Below, in pieces: positions 2,193 through 28,364 of a stretch of DNA of 64,000 nucleotides. Made by a program: the position numbers and the translations under genes. Source of the stretch: Nitrosospira sp. Nsp2 (GTDB lineage Bacteria > Pseudomonadota > Gammaproteobacteria > Burkholderiales > Nitrosomonadaceae). The stretch covers positions 372,001 through 436,000 of the forward strand of contig NZ_QAOU01000002.1 in NCBI RefSeq assembly GCF_003050965.1, read 5' to 3'. Every line of letters begins with the position of its first letter. The stretch's first letter is position 1. The notes under the pieces were generated by a model. The model made no database searches. It was not told the origin of the DNA and saw nothing but the letters and a program-made list of their open reading frames with translations.

Positions 2193-4334
2193 TTATGTTT
2201 CCTGAACCATTCGCATCTCTAACCGCACTTCGGTGCCCCCTTCGGGGCGGGACAGGAATCTCAGGGCAGCACCCAACTGGCGGGCACGGTAATGCATGAT
2301 TTTAATTCCCACTCCCGTGCTGGAGCCATGCTCGGTATCAATATTGGAAATCCCGCTGCCATCGTCGCATATCGACAGGTAGAGCATTCCGCTGCCGGAG
2401 CCCAGCGAAATGACGATATGATGCGCACCCCCATGACGTATCGCATTGCTGACTGCTTCCTGTGCAGTCCGATAAAAATTAAGCGCAATCTCGTTATCGT
2501 TGATGGCAACATCATTCGCCTGGATGAATTCACAGCTGATCTTATAGGCGTCAGCAACCCTGTTTGAGAGTGCTTGCAGCGATTTCACCAAGCCATGGGT
2601 TTCCAATTCAAATGGAAGCAGGCCTTGGGCCAGTTCCTTGCATCGCCCGACCGCGCCCTGCGCTTGCCTGGCGATGGACGCAGCAATTTTCGCGGCCTTC
2701 GCGTTACCGGAAGTCGACATGTCTTGTTCCAGGGCCTCGGCCTGGTAACCGAGCGCTGCAATCTCCTGCCCAAGATTATCGTGTAATTCCCGCCCGATCG
2801 TATGCTGATATTGTTCCGCAATGGAAACCAGGGTTTGTTCCTGGCGCTTGCCCTCCAGCCATCGCTCCAGGTCGCGGGCGACGGCGTCGATTAATCTCTG
2901 CTCTTCCGGTAACAGGAAGGGGTTGTCTTCAGGGTAGAACACCCGCAACTGCCCGCACAGCCTCTTGTTCGCTGTAATGTTCGATCGCAGTTCGTGCGTA
3001 AGAACATGGGCTTGATTCTCCGAGCTGTAGCGCCTGTCGTCGAGTTCGATCATGGCGATAGCCATTTCCGGGAATCGCATTGCCGCAACCAGGTGCCTGA
3101 CGATATGGTGGCAGGCGTTATCGAGCGATGATTCTCGCCCCAAGGTCCGGCGTATCTCGTAGAGGCAGGTAATTTCCTCCAGGCGCTTGCGCAACGTTTC
3201 ATTGATTTTTTTGGCCTCGAGCCATTTCCCCAATTCAGCGGCAAGGGCGTCTATTAGTCTTTGTTCCTCCGGCATCAGGAAGGGCTTGTCCAGGGGATAG
3301 AATAGGCGTAACTGCCCAGGTGATGTGTTATCCGCATTAATCTTCGCGTGTAGCTCGTGCGTAAGACCCTGCTCGTGACTCGGAGTAGCAAATCGCCTGT
3401 CGTCGAGTTCAATCACAACGGTCGCCGATTCCGGGAATTCCAGAGCCGGTATCAGGTGCTTCAAAATTTCCTGGCAGACATCGTCCAGCGACAATTGCAG
3501 CCCTGCACCGCGGCGGATCTCATAAAGGCAGTTAACTTCCTTAAGCCATCGTTCCAGCTCGCGCGCGAGTGCGTCGATGAGTTTTTGCTCGTCCGGTAGC
3601 AGGAATGGCGTATCTTCAGGATAGAGAACGCCCAAATGCCCGTACAGTCTATTATTCACCGTAATGTTCGATCGCAGCTGGTGCGTCGTTCCCTGCTCAC
3701 CTAACTTGTTGGCCGCACTAATCTTCGAGTGTAGCTCGTGTGTAAACCCCTGCTTTTGCCTCGCGGCAGCAAATCGCCTTTCTTCGAGTTCGATGACGAC
3801 GGCAGCGGATTCTGGGAATTGCAGCACCGGTATCAGGTTTTCCAACATTTTCTGGCAGACATCCTCCAACGGCAATTCCAGACCTGATCCGCGTCGAATC
3901 TCATACAGGCACTCAATTTCCTTAAGCCATCTCTCAAGGTCGCAGGCGATTGCGTCGACGAGCTCCTGTTCTTCCGGCAGCAGGAATGACGTATTGTCAG
4001 GATAAAACACGCGCAAGTGCCCGCACAGCCTGTCGAGCACTGCAATGTTCGATTGCAGCTCGTGCATACTACCGTCGCGATAGTTCCCTGACGTGAAACA
4101 CCTGCCGTCAAGTTCGATCATGGCGCTCGCCATTACCGGGAAGTGCATTGCCGGTATCAAATGGTCAAAAATCTGCCGGCAAATATCGTCCAGGGGTAAT
4201 TCGGGCCCCATCCGACGGCGGCTTTCGTAGAGAGCGGTGATCTCCTTGAACCGCTCCCGCAGCGCCTTTCCCACGCTTGCGGGCTCTTCTGTCTGCCCGT
4301 TGGTTACAGCAGTCGCGACGTTTTTGCTGATCAT
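2193..4334 (-). CDS. NarX/DegS-type sensor histidine kinase with four tandem sensor modules
   Basis: 713 residues with no obvious membrane segment, so probably cytoplasmic. Residues ~31-139, 139-268, 268-373 and 387-495 are four copies of one module, each opening with a LYEIRR-like segment followed by LPLDDVC, carrying an IELDDRRF-like strand and closing with PFLLPEEQ-LIDA-LERWL. Fold looks GAF-like but I could not confirm this. The second copy has an extra partial repeat (THQLRSNITVNNRLYGHL). A HisKA_3 domain follows with the phospho-acceptor His518 in GRELHDNLGQE, then an HATPase domain (NFYRTAQEAVSNAIRHGG, DDGSGI, GVGIKIM). The start has a strong GGGGGAG ribosome site. Partner is the response regulator just downstream. 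Confidence 0.93.
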   Translation of the reverse strand: MISKNVATAVTNGQTEEPASVGKALRERFKEITALYESRRRMGPELPLDDICRQIFDHLIPAMHFPVMASAMIELDGRCFTSGNYRDGSMHELQSNIAVLDRLCGHLRVFYPDNTSFLLPEEQELVDAIACDLERWLKEIECLYEIRRGSGLELPLEDVCQKMLENLIPVLQFPESAAVVIELEERRFAAARQKQGFTHELHSKISAANKLGEQGTTHQLRSNITVNNRLYGHLGVLYPEDTPFLLPDEQKLIDALARELERWLKEVNCLYEIRRGAGLQLSLDDVCQEILKHLIPALEFPESATVVIELDDRRFATPSHEQGLTHELHAKINADNTSPGQLRLFYPLDKPFLMPEEQRLIDALAAELGKWLEAKKINETLRKRLEEITCLYEIRRTLGRESSLDNACHHIVRHLVAAMRFPEMAIAMIELDDRRYSSENQAHVLTHELRSNITANKRLCGQLRVFYPEDNPFLLPEEQRLIDAVARDLERWLEGKRQEQTLVSIAEQYQHTIGRELHDNLGQEIAALGYQAEALEQDMSTSGNAKAAKIAASIARQAQGAVGRCKELAQGLLPFELETHGLVKSLQALSNRVADAYKISCEFIQANDVAINDNEIALNFYRTAQEAVSNAIRHGGAHHIVISLGSGSGMLYLSICDDGSGISNIDTEHGSSTGVGIKIMHYRARQLGAALRFLSRPEGGTEVRLEMRMVQET

Positions 4335-5131
4335 GAGGACTCCCCCTCTTTTATTATCCGATGTTTTTTGCCGTTTTTATTCGGACTTTCCTAGTTCTGT
4401 ATAGCACTAACGATAGCGATAGCGCTAAAAAATAGACCGTATGGACTATTACCGGGGATGGGGGCGCGCCTTACCACATTCTTGAATTAAGCCGCGCGAC
4501 CGATGTCTGGAACCGGGTCGCCTTGGCTTGCCGCGTGAGAATAACAACCTTCAGCCTATTGTCAGCGCCGGGTGAGACCGTTTGCGCGGGCGGTGGAGAA
4601 CCAATCTGAGAGGCGGGTAGAAAAGGTGGCGGATCGGAGCTATTCGTCCCACCGGTAGAAATCGGAACACAAGGTAGACGTATGTGCCGAAATCGGAACT
4701 CGGTAGTCGCAGGGGTGGAACCACGGTCGCTCAGGAATGGAAAAGAGCGAACTGTCAGATGCTCGGGCTTGGCAAACCATGCCACTGAGCCAGTGGCCTT
4801 TTCTATAGACGAGGCTAAAGCACCAGGTACCCTTCCCGCGTTGAAAAGACGGCAATGCAGGCTATCCATCGTGCACGCCTCCCGGGCTGACGCGCTCATT
4901 GGTGATCATAAGCCTCCCACGAACGCTCATTCGTGCATCGCTTAGGGGTTTACCCAATGAACATCGCTAAGGGTTTCACTGATTTTTTCTTAAGGGTTCA
5001 CCTAGGGTTGCTCAAGGTTTCGCCTAGCTTAAAACCAGAGTTTCCCCAATATACCGATGATATCGACTGGAATAGGATGAAACTGCTGTCACTTCATTCA
5101 CTTCATACCACTCTATTGGAGGCAACTTATC
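4335..5131. other. 797-base region upstream of kinase and lipoprotein; no supported gene
   Basis: Positions 4400-4425 carry overlapping short dyads (AGCGATAGCGCT) in the likely promoter region of the kinase. From about 4953 the sequence is the left arm of a long direct repeat that recurs from 6663 and includes the upstream region of the two lipoprotein genes. In it, short phrases resembling TAAGGGTTT/TAAGGGTTC recur (4943-5015). Open frames at 4471-4945 lack ribosome sites and recognisable products. Confidence 0.45.
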
Positions 5132-5760
5132 ATGAAAACAGAAATAAGGAACGTTGTAGCCGCTATAGCCACGCTGGGCCTGCTGGCATCTTGCGCCCAG
5201 ACCGATTTTCTTAAAGGGCAGAGGGACAGTACCAGCGCGGCTTCACCAAATACCGGGGTTTTGGGCAACCATGACGTTATTGCAAGGCGGTATGAAAATG
5301 CGGCGAAGGAACTTCTGGTAAAGGCAGAACAACGCGAGAAAATGCTCCAGCACTACGAGGACAATAGACACCTTTACGGGAGGAACGGGCAGGATTTCCA
5401 GGCACAGGCCGTGGCGATGGCCCGGAAATACAACCTGGCCGCAGAGAAAGCCGCTGCCCACGGTGCTTTTCACCGCAGGATGTCCGAACCTACAGAGCCT
5501 GATTATATCGGTGCCGGGGAGCCCGTGCATCAGGCAAGCAAACGTTAAAACAAAGCCTAGGACCGGATCGGATTCTACACCCGACTGCGAGTAACAGCGA
5601 TGAGCTTCAAGAGCGTGATGATTCCAGGTACTAAAACTATATTAGCTTCGAAAGCACAAGTTTTGCTGGTGGACGATCATGCCGTGTTGCGGGCGGCGGG
5701 GCATGGCCATGCGCATCAACCTCGAACCCGATATGGAGGTGTTTGCCGAGGCCAGTAATA
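4953..5760 (+). repeat. left copy of ~0.8 kb direct duplication
   Basis: This segment holds a leader, a lipoprotein gene and the first part of a response-regulator copy. It recurs as a diverged copy at 6663-7475 with the same order and orientation. Similarity by eye is high in the leader (for example the shared GGGTTGCTCAAGGTTT at ~5004 and ~6711) and in the lipoprotein, and falls off in the regulator remnant. Outer limits are approximate. Confidence 0.8.
5132..5548 (+). CDS. small outer-membrane-type lipoprotein, copy 1
   Basis: 138 residues. It starts with a lipoprotein signal (MKTEIRN..., lipobox LLASC, Cys at about residue 21) and continues as a hydrophilic, helix-forming, Lys/Glu/Ala-rich chain, so it is probably a lipid-anchored periplasmic helical protein. 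A GGAGGCAACTTATC ribosome site precedes the ATG. It is about 80 percent alike by eye to the copy at 6837 and a more distant paralogue of 12547-12903, sharing the YG-R-QDFQ/YG-R-QTED region and the HRRM motif near the end. I do not recognise the family and assign no function. Confidence 0.8.
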   Translation: MKTEIRNVVAAIATLGLLASCAQTDFLKGQRDSTSAASPNTGVLGNHDVIARRYENAAKELLVKAEQREKMLQHYEDNRHLYGRNGQDFQAQAVAMARKYNLAAEKAAAHGAFHRRMSEPTEPDYIGAGEPVHQASKR

Positions 5761-5942
5761 GCACGGAGGCGCTGGAGGAAACAGTGTACGCTGAACGCGT
5801 TTTACGGGCCGACGCGCAAGGCTATGTGATGAAGCAGGAGCCGGGCAAGGTGCTTGCGAACGCTATTTGCGAAGTATTGAAAGGGAATTTATATCTAAGC
5901 AGGCAAATACAGGCAGGATTGTTGACGCGGCTCGCGACTTGA
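5648..5942 (+). pseudogene. decayed response-regulator copy 1, receiver core deleted
   Basis: Translation gives SKAQVLLVDDHAVLR, then after a frame disturbance a part alike to residues 20-43 of the regulator at 1534-2190 (EPDMEVFAEA), then a jump to VYAERVLRADAQGYVMKQEPGKVLANAI and on to a stop. Compared with the intact gene, the segment that carries the phospho-acceptor Asp is missing, and the helix-turn-helix is lost. It lies on the strand opposite to the intact gene. It follows the lipoprotein by about 100 bases. Confidence 0.8.
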
Positions 5943-5967
5943 AGTTCGGAGTCGAAACCGCGTCATC

Positions 5968-6545
5968 GTCGACCAGCCCCACTTGTGCTTTCGAGGTTCC
6001 CATGCTTGCGGTTCCTTCACCATTCGCCTTTCTAGCCGCTTCTTGCGCCCCTTAGGGGGAAAGGAATTTGAGCGTGGTGCCAAGCTGATGGGCACGGCAA
6101 TGCATCATTTTAATTCTCATATCCCCGCGGAGCCATGCTCCGGGTCAATACCGGCAATCCCGCTGGCATCGTCGCACATCAACAGGTCAGGCTCTGGGCT
6201 AGTGCCTTGCATCGCCCACTACGTGACGCGCTTGAGTAGCGATGGACCGGGCAACTTGCGTATGCGCTACCTTAAAGGCGACATGTTCAGCTTCCGGGTC
6301 TCCGCCTGAAAGCCGATCGACCCATCTGCTGTGCAAGATTGTCGTACAGTTCCTGCCCCATCGTATGCTGATATGTTTCCGTAATGGAAACCAGCATTTA
6401 CTCTAGGTCGTTGCCCTCGCCATCTCTCCAGGTAGGTTTGCGACGGCGCCGATGAGTTTCTGTTCCTGCGGAAGCAGGAATGGCTTGTCCGCAGGGCGGG
6501 GCAAGAACCCGCGCCCGCCCCATCTGGCGATCCTGCGAGAACAAA
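5968..6545 (-). pseudogene. decayed kinase/regulator junction copy
   Basis: The plus-strand text at 5968-6010 matches the region around the start of the intact regulator (positions ~2157-2200), and 6055-6190 and 6320-6520 match the HATPase end and the HisKA/last sensor module of the kinase (about 2245-2390 and 2770-2950). Frames are broken and blocks are missing between these matches. With the plus-strand regulator remnant next to it, this makes an inverted, shattered copy of the two-component operon. Confidence 0.75.
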
Positions 6546-6836
6546 TCATGCTAAATAAAGCGCAGGAACCGCTGACGGGCAGAACCCCGTGGAATCCTGT
6601 CCTCGAGGACGTATTCGCTATATAGCGTTGGTGCGGATAATCAAGGCTCGCGCGGAGCTTCTCATGCATCGCTAAGGGTTTCACTGTATTTTTCTTAAGG
6701 GTTCACCTAGGGTTGCTCAAGGTTTTGCCTAGCTTAAAACCAGAGTTTCCCCAATATACCAATGGTATGGACTGGATTAGGATGAAACTGCTGTCACTTC
6801 ATTCATTTCATAACACTCTATTGGAGACAACCCATC

Positions 6837-7253
6837 ATGAAAACAGAGATAAGGAACTTTGTTGCCGCCGTCGCCACCCTGGGCCTGCTGGCTTCCTGCG
6901 CCCAGACCGATTTTCTCAAAGGGCAGAGCGACAGTACCAGCGCGGCTTTACAAAATACCAGAGTTTTGAGCGACCACGACATTATTGCAAAGCGGTATGA
7001 AAATACCGCTAAGGAACTACTGGTAAAGGCGGAGGAACGCGAGAAATTGCTCCAGCATTACGAGGACAAAAGCTACCTCTTCGGGAGGCGCGGGCAGGAT
7101 TTCCAGGCGCAGGCCATAGCTATGGCGCGAAAATACAACCTGGACGCAAAGAAAGCCGCTGCCCAAGGTGCTTTTCACCGCAGGATGTCGGAATTTGCGA
7201 AAGGTAATAATGCCGCCGCCGGGGAACCGCTGCGCCAGGTAAGCAGCAGATAA
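6837..7253 (+). CDS. small lipoprotein, copy 2
   Basis: 138 residues, same length as its duplicate at 5132. The lipobox LLASC and the helical, charged body are kept (RYENTAKELLVKAEEREKLL region), and the ribosome site GGAGACAACCCATC is kept as well. Changes between the copies are scattered amino-acid substitutions, with the last ~25 residues most different. The frame is intact despite the decay of the DNA on both sides, which suggests that the protein is still under selection. Function unknown. Confidence 0.8.
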   Translation: MKTEIRNFVAAVATLGLLASCAQTDFLKGQSDSTSAALQNTRVLSDHDIIAKRYENTAKELLVKAEEREKLLQHYEDKSYLFGRRGQDFQAQAIAMARKYNLDAKKAAAQGAFHRRMSEFAKGNNAAAGEPLRQVSSR

Positions 7254-22560: not shown

Positions 22561-22861
22561 TCGTTTACTCCTCTCGATTGATTTTCCTTAACGCCGTGCC
22601 TCGAACTCATGCTTTAACTATGCTCCATGAGGAGTCGCTGGTGATGGAACGAACTGCGAACTTTAACACCAGCAGTGCCATAACGTCTCCTCAATAAAGA
22701 CACGGGTAAAGAGAAATGTGGGATGAATTTTCTACACCACTGACCGCTTCGCGTTTCCTCCATGGAAGCTGCAGCGAAAATGCTCTGTGTGAAAACAACG
22801 CTGTGTGAAAATAACCTTGAGCAACAGGTGAGGGCGAAGAGTTTACTCTCCTCGTTTATCG

Positions 22862-22901
22862 TTGCATAATGCAAGTATAATCTATTAATTGCACGTTGCA
22901 A
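22862..22901 (+). promoter_or_regulatory. HxlR promoter with twin TTGCA-N3-TGCAA operators around the -10 box
   Basis: TTGCATAATGCAA at 22862-22874 and TTGCACGTTGCAA at 22889-22901 share the pattern TTGCA-N3-TGCAA, 27 bases apart start to start. Between them is a perfect TATAAT at 22876-22881. Both lie just upstream of the GTG start at 22925. Winged-helix regulators of the HxlR family bind such dyads, so repression of its own promoter is the likely arrangement (inference). Confidence 0.75.
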
Positions 22902-22924
22902 CCAAAATAATACGCCGGGGTAAA

Positions 22925-23299
22925 GTGGCTAAACCAGACCAGACCAAGCGCTCCTCCTGCCCCGTTAGCTGCGCGCTCGATATATTGGGCGACAAGTGGA
23001 CGCTGCTTGTCATCCGGGACATCCTGTTCATGCGAAAGCAATACTTCCAGGATTTCCTGGAGTCGCCGGAGAAGATCGCATCCAATATACTTTCGGACCG
23101 GTTGAAGAAACTGGAAGAGTGCAAAATCGTTTTGCGGCAGCGCGATCCGGGCAACGCACGCAGGATCATTTATACCCTGACCGACAAGGGGTTGGATCTG
23201 TCGCCGGCAATTCTGGAGTTGTTACGCTGGGGCGCCAAGCATGACCCGGAGAGCAACGTGAGCGACTGCTTGATACAGAGCCCGAACAATGTTATCTAA
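22925..23299 (+). CDS. HxlR-family winged-helix regulator
   Basis: 124 residues from a GTG at 22925, preceded by CGGGG at a fitting distance. The open frame extends 12 codons upstream, but those overlap an operator and the leader. Family marks: an N-terminal Cys in SSCPVSCALDILGDKWTLLVIRDI, then FLESPEKIASNILSDRLKKLEE and a wing IIYTLTDKGLDL. HxlR members sense electrophiles or redox state through such Cys. Targets are unknown; the convergent neighbour is the CRISPR mini-array and csy operon. Confidence 0.9.
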   Translation: MAKPDQTKRSSCPVSCALDILGDKWTLLVIRDILFMRKQYFQDFLESPEKIASNILSDRLKKLEECKIVLRQRDPGNARRIIYTLTDKGLDLSPAILELLRWGAKHDPESNVSDCLIQSPNNVI

Positions 23300-23392
23300 C
23301 TCGTTGATTACCATCTAATAATATATCAGATGGGAATAAGATGGAGTCAATGCGTACTTTTCGGTTCAAAAGTGCTGATTTCTCGAAATGAT

Positions 23393-23478
23393 TGACTGGG
23401 CTGCCTTTCCGGCAGTGAACGAGTGTCCAGCTTGTCATCAATTTCCTTAATTTCTGAACTGCCTCTCCGGCAGTGATT
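23393..23478 (-). CRISPR. type I-F mini-array: two repeats, one spacer
   Basis: Two 28-base units, 23393-23420 and 23451-23478, flank a 30-base spacer (23421-23450). Read on the minus strand, as the csy genes are, each repeat has the I-F hairpin: CTGCC, a loop of GGAGA or GGAAA, then GGCAG. The first (csy-proximal) repeat ends in the standard AGAAA but begins AATCACTGCC. The second begins with the standard GTTCACTGCC but has a diverged end (CCCAGTCA), as terminal repeats do. The unit length is 58, against 60 in most I-F arrays. Only 97 bases separate it from csy4, so it may be read through from the operon. Confidence 0.88.
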
Positions 23479-23575
23479 CACGCCATGCACCCATCGGTTT
23501 GCCAGCGATTGCTGGCTGCTTGATCGCACATCTGCCGACACCGAAGCGATGCCGATTCCTCTCCCTGTCGTTGTA

Positions 23576-24139
23576 CTAGAACCAGGGCACGGTCGCTGTC
23601 GGGCTAAGTCCATAAGTGCCAAATCGCCCCTCCACAGCGTGTTCCTGCAGCGGCAGATGTTCAACGAAGAGCCGAAACTTTTGCCCTGTACTCCGGCTGG
23701 TCAGGACAAGATAAGGCAAGCTTAGCCGTTTTGCGGCGCTGTCGGGAATAATCTGTCGTGCGGCCTCGGCGCTGATATTTTTTCGAAGCATCAATCTCCG
23801 GCGCTCACGTTCAGGACTGCTTTTTGCTTGAACCCGACGCACCACGCGGTGCCCGGCATGAGTTGGCACCTGCGCGATCTCACCGAACGTCGCGTGATCC
23901 TGCAACCCGGCCACCCAGCCCGGCTGTATTATTTTTTCCAGATCGCCACCTTTGCCGTGCAGGCGCAACCGCGCCCCAAGCGTAACCCCATTCTGTTCCC
24001 AGTCCGGAAAACTGATCCCGATATTTTCAGCGCCATGCGCTGCGAGCGCCTGATGTACTCTGTTGAAGATTGAATTCATCAATATGGTTGATGAAAAATC
24101 CGGGTCAGGCAACAGCCGTATATCAAAATAGGTATTCAT
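23576..24139 (-). CDS. csy4: Cas6f/Csy4 crRNA endonuclease
   Basis: 187 residues, the same length as Pseudomonas aeruginosa Csy4 and alike end to end. The catalytic His29 is kept (FNRVHQAL), as is the active-site Ser in [10 protein letters not shown]. The arginine helix that reads the repeat hairpin, [16 protein letters not shown], is kept too. The protein ends [11 protein letters not shown]. It should cut the repeat RNA at the base of the hairpin and stay bound to the crRNA 3' end. Its start overlaps the csy3 stop by 4 bases. Confidence 0.96.
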
Positions 24140-25170
24140 GAATCCTTTTCGCCAAACACGCCGCCCCGGATAAGCATCGCCATTACAAAATGCTGGTTTT
24201 CCTCGCTAGGCGGCCGCCCGTTCAGCACCCACTCGCTCAACAAGGTGTAGAAATCGGCTTTCATTCGCGGTTGCCGATATGCCTTCCCCTGAGTGGTAAC
24301 CGAGCCGTAAGGCTCGATAGCGATGGGACCCATCGGAGAGGCGCCATCGTCGGGATACCAGGTATCGATAGTACGCAGCGCGTTGCCGATTTTCTGGCTG
24401 TGGAGAGCAGCCACCGATCCCAGGGAATAAAGCGTTTTACTTTTCCGGCCCTTCTTATTCCCGCGATCGAGGATTAACTCCTGCGACGGATAAACTTCCT
24501 GGCCGTCACCAACACGGGCGTAGGCAATCACCTCGAGCAGTACAGCGCTGCCGGAAAGCCCCTGCTCGATCACATGTGCCAGTTCTTGCAGCGCGGGTGC
24601 CGCCGGCGCAGGCTCATCAAAATTTCTCAGGGAGAAATGATGGCTGTTAAATGTCCAGCACGGGCTCGCCTTGTCGTCTTGGATCAAGTACCGGGCACGT
24701 ACCTCCACCTGTTCAGCTCCCACCCGGTTGCGCCATAGGAAACGCCCATTTGCAAGGTTATGCGCATAGCGTCGGGCGAGTGCGGCAAAACCCACTTTGC
24801 TCGCATAATGCTCGACGATAGCGTTGAGCCTCGCCTGATAATCAACACTGTTGCAGGCGGCTGGAACGCCCGCTCCATCAAGAACGCGCAGTGTGAAGCG
24901 CACTCGCAACGTATCGTGCACATTGGGCAGGGTGGCGACATCCACCGCCTGGAGGTTGGGAGATTGAATCGAGTCATCCAGCTTTGCCGGGTCCTGATCC
25001 TTTGCGGAAAATCGATGGGAAATGGTGCCGCGAACGGATTTTTCTCGGACTATCACAGCGGGCCATGACTCGCCGTGGTCCCGGTCGCTCCACTGTCCGG
25101 AGGAAAATAGCGCGTCGGAAGGGTCCAGTTTGCGTTCGAAAGCCAGTACGGAGGCGGTTTTCAGCGCCAT
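24136..25170 (-). CDS. csy3: Cas7f/Csy3 backbone subunit
   Basis: 344 residues. It closely follows Pseudomonas Csy3: [18 protein letters not shown] at the start, [13 protein letters not shown], the web and palm phrases [20 protein letters not shown], and near the end [14 protein letters not shown] and LIRGGVFGE. Six copies form the spine that holds the crRNA spacer in the surveillance complex. Its start overlaps csy2 by 10 bases. Nothing suggests inactivation. Confidence 0.97.
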
Positions 25171-26189
25171 TTATTCGCCCCTTTGTCCATCTGCGTGTCG
25201 AGATAGCTGGAATAACGATTAATGCAGCAATAAATTCCATTTTCTGGTTGGGATTCGGTGTACCAGAGCAGTTGATCCAGATTCTCCACTCGATTCGGGC
25301 TGATCCATTCGCCCAGCGAATAAAGGCTTTCCGCGAAGCCGAATGGTGTGGTTCGGTCCCGGGTGTTTTGCACTTCCCCGCCAGAATAAAGAGAGGACAA
25401 AACGCTGTAGCCAATAGGCAGGGGAACCAGCCATCCAGGTTTTCTGTGTACGTCCCACCGCACCTCATCGGGGGAATCGGAGCGGGGCAGGCCGGGTTCA
25501 ATATTCAGGCGCGAGAAATCAAGTAACGCGTCGAGCATATTGGGCACCGCTCCGCTCCCGTTCTGCCGGGCTCTCATTTCAGTCAGATGGTCGATCAGCA
25601 AATCGTTGCGTTGCACCAGGGCGAAGCCGGGGATCAGTTTGCGGCGCAGGTCACGCATCACTTCGAGCTGTCCTTCCGGGCCTTCTCCAAGCGGCCACCA
25701 TCGCTGCACGGCCGGCCGCTCGGCGATCCGCGGCGGCAACAGGCTACCCCCGGCAATGCGCATGCCCTGCGCCATGCCAAAAATATCCTCGGCGAATCTC
25801 TCCCCCTCGCTGGATGAGAGCGCGTCCTTCACCGCGATAACCAGACTGACCTCCATGTGGGCACGACCTTCCTCCACCATGGCGGGTGCGCGACCGTCTT
25901 TTTCCCCCGGGTTGCGCGTAAGGTGAAACACATGCGCACGGTCCCCGGACGACCAGGACACTTGAGGCTGAAAATCGTGACAAACGATCCCAACCCCCCC
26001 AAATCCGTTTTGGAAAGAGGGGGACAACCCCCGCTCCATCGCTTTCCGCTGCAACCCATGAACGAAGCCGGTAAAGGCGGTGGGAGACGGGAAGCCCCAG
26101 CTGAGCGGGCCGGAAATGGCATTCGCATTCTGCACGCAAAGATTCGGCAAAAGCACGAGGGCAGCGGCCTTCTTCACAAGGTTAGTCAT
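25161..26189 (-). CDS. csy2: Cas5f/Csy2 subunit
   Basis: 342 residues. Recognised by [20 protein letters not shown] near the N-terminus, then [19 protein letters not shown]..., [19 protein letters not shown] and [12 protein letters not shown]. It forms, with Csy1, the foot that binds the crRNA 5' handle. It is a separate gene here, not fused to cas8f, which sets it apart from the Cas8/5 fusion of Tn7-like I-F3 systems. Its start overlaps the csy1 stop by 8 bases. Confidence 0.95.
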
Positions 26190-27576
26190 GGCAGCTCAGT
26201 TCGATGCGAGTCATATGCAATTCCTTATCAAGGAAAGAAGCCCAATGCGCGGCTTCTGTCTGATTTCGAAGTGCGGCGGGTTTACCAAGACGAGCATTCA
26301 GCCAATTCGCGTATCGGGCGCATATGGCGTCCTGCCACCCGTTGGCACGGCACAAGGCGGCAAAGCTTTCGTCTTGCGCCGCCCGCCGCGGGTCCAGCCA
26401 GCACTGCTCCTCGGAATTCAGCCGACAGTCGGGGTCCAGGGTCCAGCCCGCCTTCAACTCGTGCAATTCCGCCGCAAATTGCAACAGTTCATCGCGCAAC
26501 TCCCGCGCGACTCCAATTCTTATGTGTCCGGCCGGGCCGCTGTCAGCAGCGACGCCTCCATCTCCAAGCTGATGTATTGCCCTTAACGCCCGGCGCACCC
26601 GGTTTCGATTGCCAAACAAATGGTCGAATATGCTATTCACATGCAAGGGAGGGTGCGCGCGCTCGGAACGCCACGTTGGCGGTAAAGACGGGAGAAGATA
26701 GTTTTTGCCATTACGCTCCAGATTGAGCTGACCGGCATTCTGCGGATTCGCACCGCCCACCCGTTGTATCGCAAGGTCAGGGTAAGTCCGATAACCGTGA
26801 GGATAGGCCGCTCCCGCTCTTCGCGCGGCGCGAGCATTTTGCGCGTCAACCGAGAAACGATCCTCTTCTATTATTTTCCACACATAATGGGCAATCGAAG
26901 TGGAAAATAGCGGTGCTAAAAGGTGGTATTTCGCTTTGCTGCCTTCCGTGACCGGCCAATAAACCTGTTTGGCGAACTTATGGGATGCAAGTGGGCCTCT
27001 CGGTTGTGCCAATCGGCCAAAGGCCTCCATCCACTTTTCCGCCTGTCGCCTGTCTTCACAAAACGCAGCGGCTAAAGCCGGGTCTTGGCTGTTCGCATAA
27101 TCCAGAAGCGACTTGCCATCGACGCGCAGGCGCAAAAATGCGGCGACATCAAGCGCCGCCGCGTCACCGATCACATCGAGCCTGAGGTCATCCCTTCCAA
27201 TAGTGTGGGTGCCGACATAGGTTTCGCCGATGGCCTTGTTACCCATGGCCAGCAAATTCGAGCCTTTCGCCTGGGGGTGCGTCAACTTCAGTATGTGTGT
27301 CGCCTGCTCGATTCGCGATGCCCGCCGGGCAGCATCGGCGATCCATTCTTCCAACTGATGTCGTGCTATCTCTTTTTTGCGCTTGTGCTCGATCTCGCGT
27401 ACTTTATCCGCCTGACTATCCTTGAGTTTGGCCCGTTGTTTCTGAAGAACGTCCAGTTTTAATTGAAGGCGTTTGTGCAGGAACCCACGAATGGCAGCTT
27501 CGAAACGTGCGCTGCGCGCGTCTGTCGGAACGACGCTACTCTTTGCAAGCACCGAGTCTTTAACCGGCTGTATCAT
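26182..27576 (-). CDS. csy1: Cas8f/Csy1 large subunit
   Basis: 464 residues, in the size range of full Csy1 (434 in P. aeruginosa), so not a shortened variant. It opens with a charged coiled-coil-like part (RLQLKLDVLQKQRAKLKD). Phrases of the family follow: THPQAKGSNLLA, YVGTHTIGRDDLRLDVIGDAAALDVA, TEGSKAKYHLLAPLFSTSIAH and, further on, KNYLLPSLPPTW. Cas8f reads the CC PAM and carries the helical bundle that calls in Cas2-3. First gene of the operon, with ACAGGAGAACC before its ATG. Upstream, where cas1 and cas2-3 normally lie, there is none. Confidence 0.95.
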   Translation of the reverse strand: MIQPVKDSVLAKSSVVPTDARSARFEAAIRGFLHKRLQLKLDVLQKQRAKLKDSQADKVREIEHKRKKEIARHQLEEWIADAARRASRIEQATHILKLTHPQAKGSNLLAMGNKAIGETYVGTHTIGRDDLRLDVIGDAAALDVAAFLRLRVDGKSLLDYANSQDPALAAAFCEDRRQAEKWMEAFGRLAQPRGPLASHKFAKQVYWPVTEGSKAKYHLLAPLFSTSIAHYVWKIIEEDRFSVDAQNARAARRAGAAYPHGYRTYPDLAIQRVGGANPQNAGQLNLERNGKNYLLPSLPPTWRSERAHPPLHVNSIFDHLFGNRNRVRRALRAIHQLGDGGVAADSGPAGHIRIGVARELRDELLQFAAELHELKAGWTLDPDCRLNSEEQCWLDPRRAAQDESFAALCRANGWQDAICARYANWLNARLGKPAALRNQTEAAHWASFLDKELHMTRIELSCHD

Positions 27577-27899
27577 GGTTCTCCTGTGTCAATCGCTGGA
27601 CCGTCCGCGCAATGCTATCCGGGTGAAATGAACGACGGCATGCAGAATAGAAGACGGAATACGCCTCTATTATTCGCAATGAAACACGGGGTTTTCTGCA
27701 AGGCTGGTGCATTCGGGCGCGAACCGCGCTGAGCGGGACCCGGGATGAGCCCTGAGTGCTATCTTACGGATTGCGGCAGCTTTGAAAATTGGACCAAGAT
27801 ACAGGCTCTCACGACTCTGGTTATTTTTCATGAACTTGGCATTGATTTTGTGCGCAGGCAAGCCGGTTGCGGGATACGCTTGCGTTGGCCGCATATCCA
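27577..27899. other. 323-base divergent promoter region of the csy operon
   Basis: It lies between the csy1 start (minus) and the DUF3293 gene start (plus). I see no remnant of cas1 or cas2-3 in either strand, and no clear inverted repeat or attachment site. The csy promoter must be here unless the operon is silent. Confidence 0.5.
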
Positions 27900-28364
27900 A
27901 TGTCTGAGCAATGCCTGAGGTATAACTTGCCGCAATCCCCAATTTCTGACCAGGTCATCGCTGCCTATCGTTCCGCCAACTACCGGGTGGAAAGCAGTGG
28001 CAAGCCCTTCGTCTTGCGCATTGACCGGTATTCTGAACCGCTATCGCGGCTTTTTGCCTCTTCAGGTCACCAATGCGCTGCGTTTGTCACCGCTTTCAAC
28101 CCTTGGGGAGAGCCTCAAGGCTCTGATGCAAATCTGGCGGCCAGCGCGTGCCTTTTAGACCGGCTACGGCAAGTGCCCGGCGGCGAAGACCGGGTTATTG
28201 CTGGAATGGGGTGCGACCCGCGTGGAATATGGACTGAGGAGAAGAGTTTCCTCGTGCTCGGGCTCGAACTCGATGCATCGAAAATGCTGGGCCGGGAGTT
28301 TGACCAGAATGCAGTCGTATGGGCGGGCACTGACGCCATACCCAGACTGATTCTGCTCCGCTGA
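27900..28364 (+). CDS. DUF3293 family protein
   Basis: 154 residues from ATG 27900; an upstream in-frame start at 27867 is possible. The pattern fits the family: an N-terminal AAYRSANYRVES, the centre CAAFVTAFNPWGEP, DRVIAGMGCDPRGIWTEEKSFLVLG and the closing FDQNAVVWAGTDAIPRLILLR. Members are small soluble proteins of unknown role. It is divergent from csy1, with no known link to CRISPR function. Confidence 0.8.
   Translation: MSEQCLRYNLPQSPISDQVIAAYRSANYRVESSGKPFVLRIDRYSEPLSRLFASSGHQCAAFVTAFNPWGEPQGSDANLAASACLLDRLRQVPGGEDRVIAGMGCDPRGIWTEEKSFLVLGLELDASKMLGREFDQNAVVWAGTDAIPRLILLR

Follow-up and report, generated by a model that had tools for sequence, protein, structure and literature searches.

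An orphan type I-F Csy complex and its single conserved guide in Nitrosospira: comparisons suggesting that a virus-defence complex became an RNA-guided gene switch

Why should a bacterium keep the DNA-binding complex of a CRISPR (clustered regularly interspaced short palindromic repeats) immune system when the genes for spacer acquisition and target cleavage are gone? The question is raised by a stretch of 64,000 nucleotides (nt) from Nitrosospira sp. Nsp2, a member of an ammonia-oxidising group (contig NZ_QAOU01000002.1 of assembly GCF_003050965.1, positions 372,001 to 436,000 of the forward strand; hereafter the window), in which the type I-F genes csy1-4 are followed by an array of one spacer. 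We hypothesize, with a probability of about 0.58, that a type I-F1 immune system was reduced here and that the remainder was kept as an RNA-guided DNA-binding regulator of promoters; the comparisons described below suggest that a virus-defence complex became an RNA-guided gene switch. This reading builds on the computed loss of the immune parts, on selection acting on the complex and its guide, and on sites combining the protospacer adjacent motif (PAM) with the guide's seed, which are in excess, placed between genes and conserved at orthologous positions. The locus is composed of the following features, in window coordinates.

22889..23299, plus strand: gene of an HxlR-family regulator (PF01638)
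23393..23420, minus strand: repeat 2, the 3' hairpin of the CRISPR RNA (crRNA), -8.6 kcal/mol
23421..23450, minus strand: spacer, 30 nt
23451..23478, minus strand: repeat 1 (5' repeat), hairpin of -9.8 kcal/mol
23576..24139, minus strand: csy4 (Cas6f), crRNA endonuclease of 187 amino acids (aa; PF09618, E 1e-62)
24136..25170, minus strand: csy3 (Cas7f), 344 aa (PF09615, E 1e-134)
25161..26189, minus strand: csy2 (Cas5f), 342 aa (PF09614, E 3e-90)
26182..27576, minus strand: csy1 (Cas8f), 464 aa (PF09611, E 2e-112)
27867..28364, plus strand: DUF3293 gene (PF11697)

An earlier reading of this DNA, hereafter the original prediction, had described four full-length, overlapping csy genes between a DUF3293 gene and an HxlR regulator, with no fusion of Cas8 and Cas5, and these statements all held: the genes are intact and overlapping, their products are full length (Pfam E values from 1e-62 to 1e-134), Csy4 aligns over its whole length with Csy4 of P. 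aeruginosa, and both flanks match their families. According to the profile matches, Csy1, Csy2, Csy3 and Csy4 are separate proteins, as in type I-F1. The Cas8-Cas5 fusion, a mark of type I-F3, is absent, csy1 and csy2 being separate genes, and Cas8/5 models match Csy2 weakly. The mini-array after the csy genes contains two 28-nt repeats, which are not identical to each other in sequence and which both form a CTGCC/GGCAG fold; repeat 1 would supply the 5' handle of the crRNA, which we take to be 8 nt long.

The genome of strain Nsp2 (G000; 3.46 Mb in 21 contigs, 99.96% complete) carries a single copy of csy1. A search of this genome for Cas1 with PF01867, a model that detects the Cas1 of Nitrosovibrio sp. 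Nv4 at E 2e-11, gave no match, and neither did a search for the I-F Cas2-3 (TIGR02562), Cas3 families of other subtypes lying outside the search. Likewise, no remnant of Cas1 or Cas2-3 was found in the window by tblastn with the Nv4 proteins (best E 1.6). No further I-F array was detected in the genome when the repeat core was sought with at most one mismatch, which returned the two exact copies of the mini-array and one copy with one mismatch 149 kb away. The orphan csy1-4 with a one-spacer array and without cas1 and cas2-3 is therefore confirmed as real, and the expectation that neither these genes nor a large I-F array would turn up elsewhere in the genome was borne out within the scope of these searches.

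The relatives indicate how this arrangement arose. Among 125 genomes of the family, 20 carry Csy3 and 17 carry a Cas2-3 above the curated cut-off; the only Csy3-bearing genomes in which the Cas2-3 match is missing are G000, G105 (same species, a one-contig genome) and G111 (a second species of the same genus). In these three genomes the order DUF3293, csy1-4, array, HxlR is the same. At the same genomic site, Nitrosovibrio sp. Nv4 (G114/L142; same contig as L005) has a complete I-F1 system between the same two flanking genes, with cas1 (325 aa, PF01867 E 2e-11) and cas2-3 (1091 aa) located between csy1 and the counterpart of the DUF3293 gene. Its Csy3 is 78% identical and its repeats belong to the same family; it differs in having cas1 and cas2-3 and an array of 37 matched repeats, the spacers of which are 32 nt long. 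The Csy3 tree branches as ((G000,G105),G111),Nv4, every fork being supported at 100/98 or higher, and the csy genes of three other members of the genus (G094, G102, G115) belong to a distant I-F lineage. Because Nv4 holds a complete system at the site where G000, G105 and G111 hold the orphan locus, cas1, cas2-3 and most of the array were probably lost before the species of G000 and G111 split. A single loss before their divergence is the simplest account, and two separate losses in the two lineages are possible.

If the loss was single, all divergence of csy1-4 between G000 and G111 is later than the loss, and this divergence bears the mark of constraint. The ratio of nonsynonymous to synonymous substitution rates (dN/dS; NG86 method) is 0.120 for csy1, 0.131 for csy2, 0.102 for csy3 and 0.124 for csy4, at a synonymous divergence (dS) of 0.81-1.02; the YN00 method gives 0.08-0.17, and eight neighbouring genes have similar values (0.04-0.32). 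The genes csy1-4 are thus under purifying selection, as the original prediction had supposed from the open frames (0.10-0.13 by NG86 against the sister species). The guide has been retained as well. From repeat 1 through the repeat 2 hairpin, 70 of the 78 bases are identical between G000 and G111; the two flanks of the array agree at only 46 of 102 and at 32 of 52 aligned bases. Repeat 1 is identical at 27 of 28 positions in G111, the core of repeat 2, TCACTGCCGGAAAGGCAG, is unchanged, and spacer positions 1-25 match at all in G105 and at 24 of 25 in G111, the nominal p for the latter being 7e-6 if a neutral identity of 55% is assumed and 3e-4 at 65%. The spacing of the repeats is 58 in all three genomes, so that each has a spacer of 30 nt, 2 nt shorter than those of the Nv4 array (32 nt) and unlike the norm of about 32 nt in type I-F1. 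The conserved stretch corresponds approximately to the mature crRNA predicted by analogy with the processing known from I-F systems. Selection therefore appears to keep the guide itself. A 105-aa open reading frame (23347-23664, minus strand) crosses the mini-array and the end of csy4, and several of the interspecies changes in it are, by eye, synonymous or conservative; as an explanation of the array's conservation it was dropped, since conservation stops at the repeats.

What might such a guide recognise? Near-full-length targets (positions 1-23, up to three mismatches) amount, besides the array, to 2, 1 and 1 scattered matches in G000, G105 and G111, none of them shared, and the 125 family genomes contain no convincing guide match. 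Among the phage and plasmid matches listed, which cover 20 of 81 phage records, similarity is at chance level (E 0.2 or more). Several candidates were rejected: an exact match in an AT-rich viral contig, preceded by GC instead of CC and at chance level; a 13-base match at window position 3896 within a long open reading frame that resembles a histidine kinase by eye, regarded as a coding coincidence, also with GC instead of CC; and the pattern of PAM plus positions 1-9 and 13-16, which at first gave no orthologous match between G000 and G111, the pair L209/L152 being recognised later. A guide match flanked by CC, with three mismatches in 22 counted bases, lies at G105:C1:1612078 (L147/L168), about 0.7 kb upstream of a gene that looks by eye like an integrase; it is absent from G000 and G111 and may represent chance or a mobile-element target, such partial matches occurring once each in four other family genomes and eight times in a backwards-read control.

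The PAM of type I-F systems is CC, according to two reports (PMC4344526; PMC10097628). When CC was combined with the seed of the guide, positions 1-5 and 7-9 with position 6 left free (CC-TTAAG-N-AAA, written CCTTAAGNAAA), the three orphan genomes proved to have the highest counts of the 23 genomes of the genus, with 17 sites in G000, 16 in G105 and 12 in G111, while the other 20 genomes have between 0 and 10 (68 in total, mean 3.4). Read backwards, the pattern occurs 16, 17 and 8 times in G000, G105 and G111 and 10.2 times on average in the rest of the genus, so that the ratio of pattern to control is 1.06, 0.94 and 1.5 in the orphan genomes and 0.33 in the others. In view of this control, composition alone is no explanation of why the orphan genomes exceed the rest of the genus, yet they show no excess over the control itself. 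Avoidance of CTTAAG in other genomes as a confounding factor was not seen (7 occurrences against 6.9 expected in 20-kb stretches of four genomes, a small sample).

Defining as intergenic whatever lies outside frames of at least 100 aa, a mechanical rule, and leaving G105 aside as the same species as G000, 13 of 17 sites in G000 and 10 of 12 in G111 are intergenic, against 10 of the 27 sites (26 loci) classified out of the 68 in non-orphan genomes (pooled Fisher p 0.0025). Sites of G000 and G111 with one mismatch in PAM or seed are intergenic in only 4 of 20 cases (pooled p 9e-5; 0.028 and 0.003 separately), a comparison between a 13-base pattern in 3-kb loci for the mismatched set and an 11-base pattern in 6-kb loci for the perfect set; within the 13-base set alone, 8 of 10 and 7 of 8 perfect sites are intergenic. 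If the frame cut-off is lowered to 70 aa, L270, L275 and L287, from among the conserved pairs given next, fall in short frames.

The sites are also conserved between the two species. Eight of the 12 G111 sites, all of them intergenic and thus 8 of the 10 intergenic ones, are orthologous to G000 sites and align with them column by column (L269/L289, L270/L291, L271/L292, L273/L288, L274/L285, L275/L287, L278/L293 and L280/L294). By comparison, of 3,032 masked 11-mer windows lying no more than 200 bases away, 316 (10%) are conserved (nominal binomial p 5e-7). Without the pair L274/L285 the figures become 7 of 9 sites against 164 of 2,653 comparison windows (nominal p 1e-7). At position 6 the two species agree in 4 of the 8 pairs, as they do at the two bases preceding the site, and the other ten positions of the site are identical by construction of the search; position 6 also differs between G000 and G105 in two common sites (L278/L303, L281/L299). 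Counterparts in G105 of the G000 sites L273, L276 and L282 were not located, and comparisons of DNA and protein found no correspondence between the multicopper-oxidase regions of L281 and L317.

The genes beside the conserved sites have mostly a surface or export theme. The distance from site to start codon is given for G000 and G111, respectively.

46/40 bp: protein of 170 aa, no family match
33/34 bp: CHASE2-cyclase
232/218 bp: protein with weak likeness to the polysaccharide deacetylase Agd3 (G000 gene cut by the contig end)
56/56 bp: PEP-CTERM protein
65/64 bp: monothiol glutaredoxin
158/72 bp: glycosyltransferase-SIS protein (start uncertain)
214/216 bp: RTX-repeat protein
about 0.4-0.5 kb: gap that separates an RTX protein from a type I secretion ATP-binding cassette (ABC) transporter of the PrtD type

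We propose the following course of events. From an ancestral I-F1 system, cas1, cas2-3 and all but a remnant of the array would have disappeared, most simply in the common ancestor of the two species. Csy4 would cut the two-repeat transcript to yield one crRNA, on which Csy1-3 would assemble, and the resulting complex would bind chromosomal promoter regions in which 5'-CC stands directly before a sequence that agrees with the guide at positions 1-5 and 7-9 (TTAAG-N-AAA), with position 6 flipped out, as reported for type I complexes (PMC5904413). Binding might then modulate, and most likely repress, a regulon whose functions are mainly surface-located or exported, comprising RTX proteins, a type I secretion ABC transporter, a PEP-CTERM protein, polysaccharide enzymes and the CHASE2-cyclase. 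Expression, processing of the crRNA, binding and the direction of regulation are what we infer in this scheme. The combination found here, a conserved guide and conserved PAM-plus-seed sites before genes, would place the locus in a class of crRNA-guided regulators. The more ambitious version, in which a Csy complex without nuclease, always loaded with the same crRNA, acts through PAM and seed alone as a global regulator, is kept by selection across species and controls some eight or more promoters, mostly those of surface and exported genes, we hold at a little under even odds.

Several observations weigh against this interpretation. The seed was fixed after the alignments of G000 and G111 sites had been seen, other patterns having failed; CC with positions 1-5 and 7-11 and one mismatch, for instance, gave 18, 18 and 20 sites in G000, G105 and G111 against 12, 12 and 16 in the backwards control, only a moderate excess. 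The enrichment belongs to one clade, p is no lower than 0.012 in a rank test with two species, and the runner-up, G115, has 10 sites. The pair L274/L285 lies in a stretch that is 90% conserved and is uninformative. Past position 9 the sites match the guide about as well as they match a shuffled tail (5.08 against 4.29, fraction 0.126, in G000; 4.80 against 4.34, fraction 0.241, in G111), which limits pairing to eight bases, and position 6 agrees with the guide in 1 of 13 sites in G000 and 1 of 10 in G111, while off-target sites of the type I-E complex (Cascade) in E. coli match at position 6 in 45%, above chance (PMC5904413). In the same report, seed-only binding of Cascade left local expression unchanged, and promoter repression dropped with PAM-distal mismatches (PMC5904413); repression by the type I-F CreA likewise required pairs 13-17 besides 2-5 and 7-9 (PMC10097628). 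The sites also leave the conservation of guide positions 10-25 without explanation, and a better target than the seed sites, yet unseen, is possible. Finally, the CC PAM is an assumption for this complex. In the alignment, N250 of P. aeruginosa Csy1 is kept, N111 is replaced by D138, and K247, which we take to contact the PAM, is replaced by N277. Among 82 aligned Csy1 sequences the N111 position is N in 72 and the K247 position is K in 72; D138 and N277, both rare, occur in all three orphan genomes. Recognition of the PAM is reported for N111 and N250 (PMC7797054). A shifted or relaxed PAM of this Csy complex is possible. D138 is also found in the Csy1 of Pararobbsia and in four other aligned loci.

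The chief rival to a Csy-bound promoter site is that CCTTAAGNAAA is an ordinary transcription factor site of the clade, its likeness to the guide being coincidental. The matches are indeed short, CTTAAG is palindromic like many protein sites, most sites have A or T at position 6 (11 of 13 in G000, 7 of 10 in G111), where the guide has G, and a sigma-54-like sequence, TTGGCATGGTAACTGCT, was noticed by eye just downstream of one conserved pair. We nevertheless regard this as unlikely, because the motif was derived from the guide and the known CC PAM rather than de novo, because the three orphan genomes are the very ones that head the 23, and because selection on csy1-4 and the guide would then need a separate reason. 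The CHASE2-cyclase gene is instructive in this respect: within the genus it occurs in the three orphan genomes and in G112 (60% identity), G103 having a weak partial match (24%), and G112, the only non-orphan genome with a full-length gene and one without Csy3, shows no site within 450 bases upstream of the gene and no CCTTAAGNAAA anywhere, a control of one gene in one genome.

Retention of the complex would also be explained by addiction of the CreTA kind, in which the mini-array is an antitoxin guide that holds Csy on the promoter of a nearby toxin gene, so that the complex cannot be lost. The I-F CreTA of Acinetobacter WCHA45 resembles the present locus in its two repeat-like sequences, short spacer and CC PAM, in needing Csy and not Cas1 or Cas3, and in its required pairs 2-5 and 7-9, the positions used here; it differs in residing in a complete cas operon and in having a single adjoining toxin target in the same gap of about 400 bp, with which CreA forms 17 of 20 pairs, 13-17 being needed (PMC10097628). 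Here, by contrast, the sites are many, distant and seed-only, and a toxin gene was not recognised; in the lists of best sites for the window and for 20-kb stretches of G105 and G111, those flanked by CC near the array pair at only the four leading positions, a longer match (TTAAGGAAA, window position 22562) has CG instead of CC and is missing from the sites listed for G111, and the species diverge downstream of repeat 2. We consider this account improbable. Immune use was among the options of the original prediction, which had offered gene control, exclusion of phages and plasmids by blocking, and a borrowed nuclease; only the first gained support, from the conserved guide and the PAM-plus-seed sites at orthologous intergenic places. 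An intact complex could bind a protospacer, and the partial match near the integrase-like gene of G105 would suit such a role; but that match has no counterpart in G000 or G111 and its kind is matched by the control, protospacer similarity is at chance level among the phage and plasmid rows listed and one viral contig, an acquisition gene is lacking, one spacer kept over the divergence of species is unlike immune memory, and no I-F Cas2-3 to borrow was found in the genome, within the subtype searched. Immunity without cutting, or with a nuclease encoded elsewhere, is thus quite improbable. The idea of a decaying relic, effector genes and two repeats awaiting deletion, accords with the disappearance of cas1, cas2-3 and almost the whole array and with the difference between the two repeats. 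It is contradicted by frames that stay open in three genomes, with dN/dS near 0.1 over a dS near 0.9, and by a guide conserved far above its flanks, and is very improbable.

Returning to regulation by an RNA-guided Csy complex, the nearest precedents are CreR and CreTA (PMC12737573, PMC10097628, PMC9458426, PMC8501985). In CreR of types I and V-A, as proposed here, a crRNA-like guide and the native effector repress without cutting (PMC12737573). The promoter acted on by CreR is that of its own cas operon, whereas here the immune parts are gone and the lists of best sites for the window, G105 and G111 include no PAM-plus-seed site before csy1. For E. coli type I-E, one study indicates that PAM and about five seed bases suffice for Cascade binding in vivo, position 6 being less important, and that such binding is expected to be mainly intragenic and was inert, in contrast to the mostly intergenic sites conserved between species found here (PMC5904413); a computational claim of endogenous regulation by this system also exists (PMC6413058). 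In a literature search that reached few subscription journals, no stand-alone Csy regulator was seen among the papers listed, and no paper joined CRISPR, Nitrosospira and type I-F. In the cases met in this search (CreA, CreR), crRNA-guided regulation serves the immune system itself. If our hypothesis is true, CRISPR would here have been domesticated as an ordinary regulator, in the form of a type I effector that stands alone, has one conserved guide and serves a regulon of several promoters, and seed-only binding, reported to be inert in E. coli, would be able to come under selection; the conserved sites form a ready list for a direct test.

Two further candidate targets lie in the window itself.

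4985..4995, minus strand: CCTTAAGAAAA (CC plus seed), 136 bp before gene 5132-5548 (lipoprotein-like by eye)
6690..6700, minus strand: CCTTAAGAAAA (CC plus seed), 136 bp before the paralogous gene 6837-7253 (lipoprotein-like by eye)

Both are present in G105, and a counterpart sought in G111 was not found. The region 4960-7253 is a duplicated block, in which the paralogous genes at 5132 and 6837 have near-identical upstream regions.

A similar reduction may have occurred independently in another genus. In a survey of the best 80 of 228 loci, eight lacked a cas1 or cas3 match, seven of which start at a contig end near csy1 or cas3 and were left out of the orphan tally. L019 of Pararobbsia alpina LMG 28138 has csy1-4 and a one-spacer array at 2811-6960, as here, with a different spacer of 31 nt; no cas1 or cas2-3 match was found in the 16 kb searched, of which 2.8 kb precede csy1, the rest of the genome lying outside the search. 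It is placed elsewhere in the Csy3 tree, its own fork being weakly supported. Within the family, nine genomes of genus g3 (L123-L131) that have no Csy3 match contain frames, 437-1068 aa in length, whose similarity to the I-F Cas2-3 model covers its first 97-144 positions; these may belong to type I-F2 systems, and in L123 a Cas1 gene (PF01867, E 2e-14) precedes the Cas2-3-like frame.

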